64,000 nt of DNA from the NCBI GenBank assembly GCA_023150775.1, contig JAKLKE010000004.1:1-64000 (forward strand). The letters are read 5' to 3'. The stretch comes from Myxococcota bacterium. GTDB lineage: Bacteria > Myxococcota_A > UBA796 > CAJQPC01. The notes beneath the pieces are model-generated. The model worked only from the letters and a program-made list of their open reading frames with translations, ran no database searches and was not told the origin of the DNA. The position numbers and the translations under genes were made by a program. Of the stretch, positions 338 to 59,218 are shown piece by piece. How positions within the stretch are numbered: position 1 is the first letter of the stretch; every line of letters begins with the position of its first letter.

Positions 338-1096
338 ATGATCCACGATCGTCTCCGAAACCTGCTCGACGCGCTCATGGCGGGGCAGGTCGATCGCGCC
401 CAGGTGCTCAGCACGCTCCTTCACGACGAGCTGATGGTCGATGGGATGCACCAGGCCACCGTCGACACCCACCGAGAGCTGCGCACCGGCGTGCCCGAGG
501 TGATCTTCGGCCTGGGCAAGACCGCCGAGCAGCTCCTCACGATCATGCAGCGCCTCAACGCCGCCGGGCAGCCCGCCTTGGCGACGCGGGTGGAGGCCGA
601 CAAGGCCGGCTGGGTGATGGAGCAGCTCCCCGAGGTGATGTATTACCCCGTCGCCCGGGTGCTCTACCTGCCGACGTCGGAGCCCGTGCCCCAAGGCCGA
701 GGGGAGATCCTCGTGATCTGCGCGGGCACCTCCGACCTGCCCGTCGCTGAAGAGGCCGCCGTGGTCGCCGAGCTCCTGGGCAACCGCGTGCGCCGGGTGG
801 TCGATGTCGGCGTCGCTGGGCTTCACCGGGTGCTCGCCCACGCGAAGGAGCTGCGCAACGCCCGGGTGATCATCGTCGTCGCCGGGATGGAGGGCGCGCT
901 TCCTTCAGTCGTCGCCGGGCTCACGGACAAGCCGGTGATCGCCGTGCCCACCTCGGTTGGCTATGGCGCGTCATTTCAAGGCGTGGCGGCGCTGTTGGGC
1001 ATGTTGAACTCCTGCGGCTCTGGGGTGACCGTCGTGAACATCGACAACGGCTTCGGGGCCGCCTTTCAGGCCACCCGCATCAACCGGCTGCCATGA
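338..1096 (+). CDS. larB: Nickel pincer cofactor biosynthesis protein LarB
   Basis: AIR-carboxylase-like C-terminal half (ICAGTSDLPVAEEAAVVAELLGN, VVAGMEGALPSVVAGL, PVIAVPTSVGYGASFQGVAALLGMLNSC); directly followed by larC. Confidence 0.92.
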   Translation: MIHDRLRNLLDALMAGQVDRAQVLSTLLHDELMVDGMHQATVDTHRELRTGVPEVIFGLGKTAEQLLTIMQRLNAAGQPALATRVEADKAGWVMEQLPEVMYYPVARVLYLPTSEPVPQGRGEILVICAGTSDLPVAEEAAVVAELLGNRVRRVVDVGVAGLHRVLAHAKELRNARVIIVVAGMEGALPSVVAGLTDKPVIAVPTSVGYGASFQGVAALLGMLNSCGSGVTVVNIDNGFGAAFQATRINRLP

Positions 1097-2403
1097 CGCT
1101 CGCCTGGCTCGACGCACGGGCGGGTCTCGCCGGGGACATGCTCTGCGCGGCGCTCTTGGACGCCTCCGGCGACGCCGAGGCCCTCGCCACCGAGCTCCAG
1201 GGCGTGATGGTGGACCTCGGGCTCAGCGGCTTCACGCTTCGATTGAGCCGAGTGCGCCGGGGCGTGATCTCCGGGCTTCATTTTGATGTGGTCCTGGCGA
1301 ATGATGGCCCCGCGCCGATGCCCGAGGCCGATCCGCGCCACCATGATCACGGCCATGACCACGATCATGGGCACGGGCACGAGCACGGCCACGATCACGG
1401 CCATGATCACGATCACGACTCCAGCCGGGACTGGGCGCAGATCCGGGGGATGATCCTTCGCTCCAGCTTGCCCCAGGCCGTGAAAGACGCCGCCGTCGCC
1501 GCCTTCGGGGCCCTCGCCGAGGCCGAGGCCCGGGTGCACGGGGTGCCCATCGAGCGGGTGAGCTTCCACGAGGTCGGCGCCGTGGACTCGATCATCGACA
1601 TGGTCGGCGCCTGTTACCTGCTGTGGCGTTTGGGCGTGGCGTCCCTCACCGTGAGCCCGCTGCCGCTGGGCGGCGGCACGGTGCAGACGGCGCACGGCGT
1701 GCTCACCGTGCCTGTCCCGGCGACGATCGAGCTCCTGCGCGGCTTCCCGGTGTTTCAGGACGGGCGCCGGGGCGAGCTGGTCACGCCGACGGGGGCGGCT
1801 CTGGCTCGGGCCCTGGGCAAGCCGGGGCCGATGCCCTCGATGCGGCCCACGGCGACGGGCTACGGCGCGGGCACCCGGAACCCTGAGGGCTGGAACAACG
1901 TCACCCGGCTGATCCTCGGCGAGCCTCTGGGCGTGGATGAGGCGGCGGACGTGCCCGCGGATGAGGTCGAGGTGATCTCCGCCCAGGTGGACGACATGCC
2001 CGGCGAGGCGCTCCCGGCGCTGATCAGCGCCTTGCTCGCCGCCGGGGCCGCCGACGCCTTCGCCGCGCCGGTGGTGATGAAGAAGGGGCGCCTGGGCCAG
2101 CTCATCACGGCGATCTGCGCGCCGGAGCGGGCCGGGGCCGTCGGGGACGCCCTGCTGCGCCACTCCACGAGCTTCGGCCTGCGCCGCCACCGCGCCCAGC
2201 GTGAGGTCCTCGACCGCCGCCACGTCACCGTTCAGACCCCCTTCGGGGCGGTGCGGGTGAAGCTCGGCGCTCGGGCTGGGGAGCTCTACCAGGCCAAGCC
2301 CGAGCACGAGGACTGCGCCCGGCTCGCCCTGGCCGCCGGGGTGCCTTTGGCCCGCGTCGTCGAGGCCGCCCTGGGCGCCTTGCCCCCGGAGGAGCGCCCA
2401 TGA
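1093..2403 (+). CDS. larC: Nickel insertion protein LarC (His-rich insert)
   Basis: N-term MTLAWLDARAGLAGDMLCAALLDA, HEVGAVDSIIDMVG, PTGAALARAL; HHDHGHDHDHGHGHEHGHDHGHDHDHD insert; overlaps larB by 4 nt. Confidence 0.92.
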   Translation: MTLAWLDARAGLAGDMLCAALLDASGDAEALATELQGVMVDLGLSGFTLRLSRVRRGVISGLHFDVVLANDGPAPMPEADPRHHDHGHDHDHGHGHEHGHDHGHDHDHDSSRDWAQIRGMILRSSLPQAVKDAAVAAFGALAEAEARVHGVPIERVSFHEVGAVDSIIDMVGACYLLWRLGVASLTVSPLPLGGGTVQTAHGVLTVPVPATIELLRGFPVFQDGRRGELVTPTGAALARALGKPGPMPSMRPTATGYGAGTRNPEGWNNVTRLILGEPLGVDEAADVPADEVEVISAQVDDMPGEALPALISALLAAGAADAFAAPVVMKKGRLGQLITAICAPERAGAVGDALLRHSTSFGLRRHRAQREVLDRRHVTVQTPFGAVRVKLGARAGELYQAKPEHEDCARLALAAGVPLARVVEAALGALPPEERP

Positions 2404-3380
2404 GCCTCATCGCCTCCCCGCACCACGACCTCTGCGGCATGTTGGAGCAGCTCGGCTTCACCGTGCTGGAGACGAACGACCCCACCGACGCCGCCGCCCG
2501 GGCGGATCTGGTCGTCGTGCCTTGGGTGAACCGCCCGCTCTCGGGCCTGGAGTGGTGCCGCCGGGTGCGTGAGCAGCAGGCCGAGCTGCCCCTGCTCGTC
2601 GTCACCCGCAGCGACGCCGAGGCCAACGCCGCCTTGGAGGCCGGGGCCACGGACGTGCTGCGCCTGCCCCTGCACGACGCCGTCACCCGCGCCCGCTGCC
2701 GGGCCTTGCTCACGAAGATGAACGAACGCGCCGCGCGCCCCCGCGCCGCCTTCGCCGCCCGGGTGCTCGACGCGTGTCCTGACGCGATCATCACAACTGA
2801 CGCCTCGGGCCTGATCCTCACCTTCAACCGCGCCGCCGAGCTGCTCACCGGGCACCTCGCTGAGGAGATCGTCGGCAACTTAGACCTCGGCGTGCTCTTC
2901 GACAGCCCGTCTGAGGCCGCCCGCCTCGACCTCAGCCTGCGCGCGGCGACGGACCACGTCCTGCTCAACCAGCCTGTGCGCCTGCGCACCGCCGAGGGGG
3001 AGCGGGTGCCGACGATGGTGAGCTTGGCGGCGCTGTTTGGCGCAGGTGGCGTCCGGGACGGGCTCGTCGGCGTGTACCGCGACGATCGGGACAACGACGC
3101 CTTGGGCGAGCGCCTCGCCACGGCCACCGCCCAGCTCGTGCAGGCCGAGCGCCGGGGCAGCCGCCTGATGACCGTCGGCGCGGCGGCCTGGGAGCTGAAC
3201 CAGCCGCTCACTTCAGCGATGGGGCTCTTGGAGCTGCTCATGCTCCGCCCCGAGCTGAGCGCCGACTCCCACGAGCGCCTGGAGCGGGCGTACAATCAGC
3301 TAGAGCGCCTCGCCGAGGGCGTGCGCCGAGTCGCCGCCTTGACCGAGGCCCCGGCCAGCCCGGACGCGCCCCTGACCTGA
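2400..3380 (+). CDS. Receiver-like/PAS/HisKA-like protein lacking a HATPase domain (pseudo-histidine kinase)
   Basis: PAS-like ARVLDACPDAIITTDASGLILTFNRAAELLTG; HisKA-like AAAWELNQPLTSAMGLLELLM; ends without N/G boxes. Confidence 0.75.
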   Translation: MSLIASPHHDLCGMLEQLGFTVLETNDPTDAAARADLVVVPWVNRPLSGLEWCRRVREQQAELPLLVVTRSDAEANAALEAGATDVLRLPLHDAVTRARCRALLTKMNERAARPRAAFAARVLDACPDAIITTDASGLILTFNRAAELLTGHLAEEIVGNLDLGVLFDSPSEAARLDLSLRAATDHVLLNQPVRLRTAEGERVPTMVSLAALFGAGGVRDGLVGVYRDDRDNDALGERLATATAQLVQAERRGSRLMTVGAAAWELNQPLTSAMGLLELLMLRPELSADSHERLERAYNQLERLAEGVRRVAALTEAPASPDAPLT

Positions 3381-56727: not shown

Positions 56728-57603
56728 TCAGGCGGCGGGGCTCAAGAGGTCGAGGATGGCGTCGGTGATGGCGCCGTCGCAGGCCGTGTCGTAGGCGGTG
56801 TACATCGGCTGGGCGTTCATCTCCAAGAGCACGAGCGCGCCCTCGTCGTCCTGTTTGAGGTCGGCGGCGCAGAGCTGCAGGCCCATCGCCGAGGCGAGGG
56901 CGAAGAGCGGCCCCAAGACCGCCTCCGGGGGGTCGTCCACCCGCTCAAAGGGCGCGTCGGGGGTGGCGCGGTGGTCCAAGACCTCGGCGTGGATCTGGAA
57001 GGTGAAGGCCCGCTCCCCCACCAAGGTCACGCGCAGCTCGGGGCCATGAAGGCGCGCTTGCACGAAGGCGGGCGACGGCGCGGCGCTGGCGTCGGCGTCT
57101 TGCTCGGCGAGGGCGTCTTCGAGGGGGACACAGAGCCCACCGCCGCGCAGGGGCTTGGCGACGAGGGCCTCCACCTCCCGCGCCCGCGAGGCGTGGAGAT
57201 CGTTGGTGACCACCCCTCTGGGCACACGCAGGCCGAGGCGCGCGGCGAGTCCCAAGGCGGCGACCTTGTTCACCCGCCGACCCAAGGCCTCACGGTTGAG
57301 CACGAAGACGCCGGGGTTCAGCGCGGCGTAGCCCACGAGCGCCTCGTACCAGTCCAAGGCGCGGGCGGCCACGGCGGGGCGTGGGTCGGCCAAGGCGGAG
57401 AAGACGTCGTGGCGGACCCAGAGCGCCGTGGGGCGCAGGGCCTCACCGTCAAGGCGTAAGACGCCGTCGGGCACGCCCAGGGTGAGCGTGGGCCAGGTCT
57501 CCGGGCCGACGAGCAGGCCCCGGGCGTTGATCCCCCGAGCCTCAGCGCGGCGCAGCGCCCGGGTGAGGTGCGGGTCAAGCGCCCCGCCCGCGAGCAGGAT
57601 CAC
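56728..57603 (-). CDS. ATP-grasp ligase resembling graspetide (MvdD/PsnB-like) macrocyclases
   Basis: GTG start; LVAKPLRGGGLCVPLED, FVQARLHGPELRVTLVGERAFTFQIHAE, CAADLKQDDEGALVLLEMNAQPMYTAYDTACDGAITDAILDLL; 6 nt after the repeat peptide gene. Confidence 0.75.
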   Translation of the reverse strand: MILLAGGALDPHLTRALRRAEARGINARGLLVGPETWPTLTLGVPDGVLRLDGEALRPTALWVRHDVFSALADPRPAVAARALDWYEALVGYAALNPGVFVLNREALGRRVNKVAALGLAARLGLRVPRGVVTNDLHASRAREVEALVAKPLRGGGLCVPLEDALAEQDADASAAPSPAFVQARLHGPELRVTLVGERAFTFQIHAEVLDHRATPDAPFERVDDPPEAVLGPLFALASAMGLQLCAADLKQDDEGALVLLEMNAQPMYTAYDTACDGAITDAILDLLSPAA

Positions 57604-57609
57604 CCCGGC

Positions 57610-57771
57610 CTACTTCTCGCCGAAGGCCTTCTTGCTGGCCTGCTGCTGGCGCTCGTCGCCGGGCTCTTCAGGGATGGCCATGGTCTTGTACTCGTCGTCG
57701 CCGGGCTCCTCGGGGATGGCCATGGTCTTGTACTCTTTGGGCGCCTGGGACTTCTTGGTCGTCTCGGCCAT
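57610..57771 (-). CDS. Candidate graspetide precursor peptide with two core repeats
   Basis: MAETTKKSQAPK-EYKTMAIPEEPGDD-EYKTMAIPEEPGDE-RQQQASKKAFGEK; alternative start at 57810. Confidence 0.7.
   Translation of the reverse strand: MAETTKKSQAPKEYKTMAIPEEPGDDEYKTMAIPEEPGDERQQQASKKAFGEK
57652..57735 (-). repeat. Two tandem 42-nt coding repeats (14 aa each)
   Basis: Units 57694-57735 and 57652-57693 encode EYKTMAIPEEPGDD and EYKTMAIPEEPGDE. Confidence 0.9.
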
Positions 57772-57819
57772 GGTGGCTCCGGGGTTGGGGGACGAGGTGG
57801 AGGATAGCACCTGCGCGGC

Positions 57820-58296
57820 TCAGCGGGTGGGCTCGTCTTGGTCCGCGCTGGGTGGGGTTTGAACGGCGCCAGGAACCCGGAACAGCGGGATCGGCGGCAA
57901 GGACAGGTCCATACGCCCAAAGAGCGAGTGGGTCAGCTCGCGCCAATACGGCCACACGTTGAGCACGCCGTTACGCTCGGCGAAGTCCTCAAGGTCATCC
58001 GGCTCGATGACGAAGGAGGCCGGGCGGCCGTAAATCGCCTGGTAGCGGGCGGTGATGAACAGCGGCGCAGACTCCGGCGCGACGTCTGCTTGGCCAAGGT
58101 GAAGGCTGAGCTTCACCGTCACGACGACGCTCGACGCCTGGGGATCGTCGGCGCCAGTGGCCTCGTAGTGCAGGTGAATTGTCTCGGAGCCTTTGAGCAC
58201 GCCATCGGTGATGGCTCCGCTGTGGGCGTGAACGTCACGCAGGTGGATGCCTTGAAGGTTAACGACTTGCCAAATGCGGGGAGTAGGCGTGGACAT
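57820..58296 (-). CDS. SecB-like chaperone, probable TAC chaperone
   Basis: SSVVVTVKLSLHLGQAD...LFITARYQAIYGRPASFVIEPDDLEDFAERNGVLNVWPYWRELTHSLFGRMDLSLPPIPLFRV. Confidence 0.8.
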   Translation of the reverse strand: MSTPTPRIWQVVNLQGIHLRDVHAHSGAITDGVLKGSETIHLHYEATGADDPQASSVVVTVKLSLHLGQADVAPESAPLFITARYQAIYGRPASFVIEPDDLEDFAERNGVLNVWPYWRELTHSLFGRMDLSLPPIPLFRVPGAVQTPPSADQDEPTR

Positions 58297-58299
58297 GGT

Positions 58300-58719
58300 T
58301 CAGCCCGTGCAACCGGCGAGGGCATCGCCATTGCTGTGGTCAACCGCCGGGCTACGACGGCAATGTTGAGTTTGAAACTGGTACACGATGGCACCGCCAG
58401 TGCTCGACGCAACGAGCGGACTTCTGTAGGAGTCCTTCTCTTTCCACTCTCGAATCGACAAGTTGACGACACCGCCCATGACATGCACGGTGCTTGCGAG
58501 AGTCCGAAGGCTGACGTTTCGCCCCCGAAGCATCTGCGTGATGTTGGCGGGGGACGTGCCGAGGCGACGCGCCAGTTCGGCGCGCGAGATCTGATGGTCT
58601 TCCATCCATCCCGCGATCTGCTCCATCACGTCCACGACGAGACCCTCCTCCGCATAGATGCGCTCGAAGTCGCTTTCGGAAAGCGGCGTCGGGAGGTTCG
58701 TCTGCTTCTTGGTGTCCAT
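58300..58719 (-). CDS. HigA-like XRE antitoxin with C-terminal extension
   Basis: HTH QISRAELARRLGTSPANITQMLRGRNVSLRTLASTVHVMGG; C-terminal tail beyond the HTH; 3-nt gap to the SecB-like gene. Confidence 0.8.
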   Translation of the reverse strand: MDTKKQTNLPTPLSESDFERIYAEEGLVVDVMEQIAGWMEDHQISRAELARRLGTSPANITQMLRGRNVSLRTLASTVHVMGGVVNLSIREWKEKDSYRSPLVASSTGGAIVYQFQTQHCRRSPAVDHSNGDALAGCTG

Positions 58720-58762
58720 GAGTTACACCTCACTACATGTATAGCCAGAACGCTATAACGGC

Positions 58763-59218
58763 CTATTTTTTTGAGGACTTCGACTTGATGCGCTGGTCGT
58801 TCTCCTCCTTCAGCCGCTTGGCTCGGAGAACATCGTCAGGTCGATGCGCATCCGTCTTCTTGATGACGCAGTAAAGTAAAAACCAAGTGGTCTTTTTCGG
58901 GTCAACGGTCTTGTCGGGATAGCACAGCACACGGAGTTGATGGGCCTTGATCTCATAGAGACCATCCTCCTGTAGATTCTTAAAGCGTAGTTCATTCCGA
59001 ATGAACGAATGGCCATGCTCCGCGATTAGCCTTGCATAGCGCAAAGCGGTTGCGTATTCCTTCGGACGCTCAGCCTTGAGCTGATCAAGAAACTCTTTGG
59101 ATGGCAGTCTCCCAGAAGCATCTTCGGCGAACCGAACTCGACATGCCAGACCATCGTTAACAAACGGGTCATTCAGCTCAAGCTGGAAATCATCGGACGA
59201 GTGGACACGAGAAGACAT
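58763..59218 (-). CDS. HigB/Gp49-like toxin
   Basis: LDQLKAERPKEYATALRYARLIAEHGHSFIRNELRFKNLQEDGLYEIKAHQLRVLCYPDKT...TWFLLYCVIKKTDAHRPDDVLRAKRLKEENDQR. Confidence 0.8.
   Translation of the reverse strand: MSSRVHSSDDFQLELNDPFVNDGLACRVRFAEDASGRLPSKEFLDQLKAERPKEYATALRYARLIAEHGHSFIRNELRFKNLQEDGLYEIKAHQLRVLCYPDKTVDPKKTTWFLLYCVIKKTDAHRPDDVLRAKRLKEENDQRIKSKSSKK

Follow-up and report, generated by a model that had tools for sequence, protein, structure and literature searches.

We analysed a 64,000-nucleotide stretch of a Myxococcota bacterium genome (contig JAKLKE010000004.1, hereafter the window) and found on its minus strand a short two-core peptide gene followed by a gene for a PsnB-like ATP-grasp enzyme (Table 1). 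This pair is best explained as a minimal graspetide locus of two genes with plesiocin ancestry, and we have little doubt that it is a real graspetide locus. Each core carries KTxxxxEE, with Lys rather than the Thr of plesiocin as the first donor.

Table 1. Features of the graspetide locus and of the genes upstream of it
Feature	Position	Strand	Basis or remark
ATP-grasp graspetide synthetase, PsnB-like, 291 aa	56728..57603	-	GTG start; profile, structure and tree matches
Precursor peptide, 53 aa, MAETTKKSQAPK-EYKTMAIPEEPGDD-EYKTMAIPEEPGDE-RQQQASKKAFGEK	57610..57771	-	ATG start; conserved in congener
N-terminal leader, 12 aa, MAETTKKSQAPK	57736..57771	-	Sequence
Core repeat 1, EYKTMAIPEEPGDD	57694..57735	-	Predicted rings T16-E21 (inner, ester) and K15-E22 (outer, amide)
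Core repeat 2, EYKTMAIPEEPGDE	57652..57693	-	Predicted rings T30-E35 (inner, ester) and K29-E36 (outer, amide)
C-terminal tail, RQQQASKKAFGEK	57613..57651	-	Possible follower recognition element; weak
SecB-like protein, 158 aa	57820-58296	-	Best PDB match SecB-like chaperone Rv1957, E 0.074
HTH antitoxin	58300-58719	-	Similarity
Gp49/HigB-like toxin	58763-59218	-	Similarity

The peptide gene is conserved in a second species

The sequence-only reading had described a 53-residue peptide lying 6 nt upstream of an ATP-grasp ligase, and we recovered exactly this arrangement: the stop codon of the peptide is followed by 6 nt and then by the GTG of the synthetase, with both genes in the same frame. 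The two 14-residue cores follow the pattern EYKTMAIPEEPGD[D/E] and differ at one residue (D/E). We counted KT/TT-xxxx-acidic-acidic octapeptides that recur almost perfectly in the same frame; there was one such case in the six frames of the window and none in 100 triplet shuffles of it, indicating that the repeat did not arise by chance.

The same reading had proposed a search for such peptides beside ATP-grasp genes. We found the gene pair again, with its order retained, in another species of the genus (G001, JAKLKD010000004.1, 'Myxococcota bacterium isolate MAG.235'). The two peptides are identical at 52 of 53 residues, with Q43K as the sole change, and the synthetases are 83% identical. The peptide codons differ by 9 synonymous changes and 1 nonsynonymous change (dN 0.008, dS 0.37), which suggests strong purifying selection on the precursor; the retention of 52 residues despite 9 synonymous changes also indicates that the peptide gene is real. 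A contig scan of the genomes returned this congener alone, and when codons of the KTMAx[PA]EE[PA] type were searched for as a degenerate DNA pattern, only the window's genome and G001 matched among 379 genomes of the phylum. Plasmid searches gave no match for the peptide and one weak, partial match for the enzyme. Because the KT core has been seen in just two species, both of one genus, the Lys and the second Glu are conserved only to a shallow depth.

The start codon was also examined by comparing the two species. Many residues encoded by the 13 codons upstream of the ATG differ between them, whereas both retain a GGAG, resembling a ribosome-binding site, before the ATG. The alternative GTG at 57810, which would give a leader of 25 residues and not the 26 first proposed, is therefore unlikely to be the true start as judged from this comparison, and the short form with the 12-residue leader is the likely product.

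The ATP-grasp enzyme is related to PsnB

We compared the enzyme with profile libraries and solved structures. The best NCBIfam model was TIGR04187 (ATP-grasp ribosomal peptide maturase, 3.8e-22), which matches all 7 members of the synthetase clade described below; the score of 78.9 bits lies under the trusted cut-off of 350 bits, as is the case for divergent members. A Pfam search of the synthetase gave no relevant match, and a single-sequence AlphaFold2 model (pLDDT 40) was not used. Among solved structures, PsnB was the top match for the single sequence (1.3e-10) and for the clade profile (6.4e-34, over nearly the whole length), followed in the latter search by the graspetide synthetases 9bou, 5ig8, CdnC 7mgv and AMdnB 7m4s. 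We take the matching chain, 7drm, to be PsnB; it is listed as 'ATP-grasp domain-containing protein'. Genome G241 encodes this protein (100% over the stretch searched) beside a plesiocin-type precursor, which supports the assignment.

These matches bear on whether the enzyme could instead be a RimK-like ligase, attaching amino acids to the peptide or some other protein without cyclization. The rimK_fam model TIGR00768 does match (3.7e-6) and the fold family is shared, but RimK is not the best match: it reached 8e-6 with the clade profile, many orders behind the graspetide synthetases, and repeat precursors adjoin the synthetases in the clade. We consider this function very improbable and rejected it. 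Clustering with RimK or glutathione synthetase and the lack of a conserved small peptide, which the sequence-only reading had named as grounds for abandoning a graspetide locus, were thus not what we found. The comparison with graspetide synthetases proposed there places the enzyme in the graspetide synthetase lineage.

Arg213 of PsnB, which reportedly (Song et al. 2021) recognises the ring-forming acidic residue, aligns with R191 of the window synthetase. K113, K150, D248 and E261 are invariant in its clade. Beside conserved arginines, the window lineage has T193 and H211 where the clade is mostly aromatic, and Y268 and Y271 at positions that are mostly Phe in the clade. These four lineage-specific residues near the active site are candidates for involvement in the donor change.

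The KT core lies within a clade of TT cores

Synthetase homologs of 35-45% identity were found in five other Myxococcota genomes among several hundred searched. In the tree, the window enzyme and its congener fall inside a 7-member clade of short PsnB-like synthetases (support 100/100), which in turn is joined as a whole to the PsnB group (97/95). The nearest relative of the window genus is the enzyme of L030 in G468 (89/87; an earlier tree built with partial PsnB gave 95/95), although the long branch of the window genus makes this exact sister less sure than clade membership.

Four of the five other members (G296, G379, G468 and G456) have a precursor with TTxAxGEE repeats directly upstream, with cores such as TTLAVGEE, TTMATGEE and TTMAMGEE; no precursor was recognised beside the synthetase of the fifth, G586. 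These precursors have about 260-450 residues and 9-14 cores each, whereas the window peptide has 53 residues and two, and three of them contain folded N-terminal domains (PrcB_C, tyrosinase). The first core position is Thr in 43 of 44 clade cores, counted without overlapping matches, Ala in one and Lys in none. The register T-M/L-A-V/I-G/P-E-E is kept between these cores and those of the window. Given the TT-repeat precursors upstream of the clade synthetases, KTMAIPEE corresponds to a TTxxxxEE core with the outer Thr changed to Lys, and the plain reading is that it would have descended from a TTxAxGEE core via this change and Gly to Pro. The comparison with plesiocin, first drawn from spacing alone, is therefore supported by homology. 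In G121, a more distant PsnB relative is accompanied by a precursor with two cores, DERYTTMAVGEEGGEE, which closely parallels DDEYKTMAIPEEPGDE.

Several loci deserve separate mention. In L030 (142-1494, plus strand, G468), a tyrosinase domain (PF00264, 6e-30) is fused to about 11 TTxxxxEE cores and adjoins a PsnB-like synthetase; here a graspetide-type tail is attached to a folded enzyme. The plesiocin-type precursors of L018 (2367-3287, minus strand, G296) and L022 (2630-3256, minus strand, G379) have an N-terminal PrcB_C-like domain, with a match of 5e-6 in L022 and a weak one in L018; the L022 repeats run on in another frame (2304-3359), which points to a frameshift or an assembly error. 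The two-core precursor of G121 (L043, about 823-1153, plus strand; YTTMAVGEEGGEE twice) adjoins a PsnB-like synthetase and has an N-terminal region of roughly 65 residues; a dodecin-like reading of this leader was dropped, as the region has no Pfam match. The window's own genome contains further graspetide-synthetase-like ATP-grasp genes, L002 (G000:C133:30756-31526) and L003 (G000:C133:11271-12116), with orthologs in G001 (L010 and L012).

Predicted ring formation

Graspetide synthetases activate an acidic side chain by phosphorylation, after which Ser, Thr or Lys attacks it (PMC13097080), and cross-linking generally runs from N to C along the acidic residues (PMC12291112). At the window locus, the PsnB-like enzyme would phosphorylate core Glu residues with ATP, followed by attack from a side chain of the same repeat. 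The inner Thr esters would form first and the outer Lys amides would follow, with Lys in place of plesiocin's outer Thr, and the predicted product is two mixed lactone/lactam hairpins with four dehydrations in total. We lean towards this outcome, in which a single enzyme would give one inner Thr-Glu ester and one outer Lys-Glu amide per repeat; the bonds, their order and the Lys amide are predictions. By analogy with plesiocin, the product would likely serve as a serine-protease inhibitor. Both esters and amides are made by some single synthetases (PMC13097080), and Gra-4, with two TxxKxxDD repeats, carries two lactams and two lactones (PMC9576775), a precedent for mixed repeats from one ATP-grasp; together these make a mixed product plausible.

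Lys might instead not act as a donor, so that each repeat would hold the inner Thr-Glu ester alone (two dehydrations) and the outer ring at K15/K29 would be lost. If the core Lys residues are free, trypsin would release TMAIPEEPGDDEYK and TMAIPEEPGDER, each with one dehydration. Gra-5, a group 2 peptide minus one donor/acceptor pair, has a single dehydration (PMC9576775), and the enzymes of the TT clade may be adapted to hydroxyl donors. We regard the loss of the outer ring as unlikely, since E22 and E36 are both retained and Lys, the sole amine donor in graspetides, occupies the exact outer-donor site in both repeats of both species. A different connectivity, in which Lys/Thr pair with the Asp/Glu of PGD[D/E] or rings span both repeats, appears more improbable still. 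The repeats do contain further acidic residues (D25, D26, E27, D39 and E40), and graspetide ring patterns vary widely, with connectivity often unpredictable from sequence (PMC8939145). However, the T-x4-E-E spacing and the flanking residues agree with those of the TTxAxGEE cores in the closest relatives, and the two ester links of plesiocin stay within each repeat (PMC12291112, PMC13097080).

Leader and tail

We searched the leader for recognition motifs. MAETTKKSQAPK contains neither PFFARFL nor the general Phhx(1,2)h motif (motifs from PMC8939145), and the PsnA-like leader LFIEDLGQVTGG is absent from the window precursor; such leaders are present in L041 and L042. The precursors of four relatives (L018, L022, L030 and L032) end in GPFGAY, GPFG, GPFGAF and NPFGAF, that is, in a [GN]PFG tail extended in three of them to PFGAF or PFGAY. 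For ThfB, recognition has been ascribed to an RPFG tetrapeptide, and moving the leader to the C-terminus does not abolish its function (PMC13003496), so a natural follower is possible. The GPFG/NPFG tails of the relatives may possibly be a follower recognition motif, and the C-terminal tail could be a recognition element in the window peptide as well. For the follower suggested by the sequence-only reading, the GPFGAF-like tails give a weak lead, but the window peptide ends in KAFGEK, where the match is limited to FG, preceded by Ala. A further, less probable reading is a naturally near-leaderless graspetide, for which a PsnB-related enzyme would read the cores and a short C-terminal [PA]FG tail and make inner-lactone/outer-lactam nested hairpins. 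We found no description of this nested topology for plesiocin-type peptides in the PMC articles cited here.

Comparison with known graspetides

The window locus has an adjacent short precursor with conserved donor-acceptor spacing. It resembles plesiocin (PsnA/PsnB, group 2), which also comes from Myxococcota, in donor/acceptor spacing, repeated cores, a single synthetase and the conserved Arg213. It differs in having Pro rather than Gly before EE, two cores, and a synthetase of 291 rather than 314 residues in a clade separate from the PsnB branch. The group 2 core TTxxxxEE is replaced by KTxxxxEE in both repeats of the two species' peptides. The locus thus falls outside the strict definition of group 2 (TT core, leader) yet groups with it by descent, and it should work like the plesiocin group.

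Microviridins (group 1) combine ester and amide rings in one peptide, as predicted here, but they have a TxKYPSDWEE cage pattern, the PFFARFL leader and two dedicated synthetases; both the core and the leader are absent from the window precursor. Gra-4 of Burkholderia seminalis (PMC9576775) comes from a graspetide gene cluster and likewise has two repeats in which a Thr and a Lys donor are combined with a pair of acidic acceptors, whereas its donors are three positions apart, Thr preceding Lys, its acceptors are Asp, its motif is different and its group is unnumbered. Corallotide (group 15, Corallococcus, PMC13097080) shares the Myxococcota origin, a TIGR04187-type synthetase and repeated Lys-to-acid isopeptide rings, but each of its repeats holds a single KxxxD ring, a 2OG oxygenase carries out 5-hydroxylation, and the precursor is about 22 kDa.

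Genomic setting and meaning

Directly upstream of the graspetide pair, on the same strand, are three genes whose order is common to the window and G001; by similarity they form a probable toxin-antitoxin-chaperone module (57820-59218). The sole promoter-like site in the stretch scanned (59332-59305) precedes the toxin gene, and the peptide may therefore share a transcript with this module. Among the immediate neighbours we recognised no gene for a protease or transporter, and no Rfam family was found in the region.

The change from Thr to Lys inside a TT clade would represent a natural experiment in which one ring switches from ester to amide while the other is kept. If formed, the amide outer ring would resist hydrolysis, and the 53-residue substrate with its 12-residue leader is small enough for direct recognition tests.
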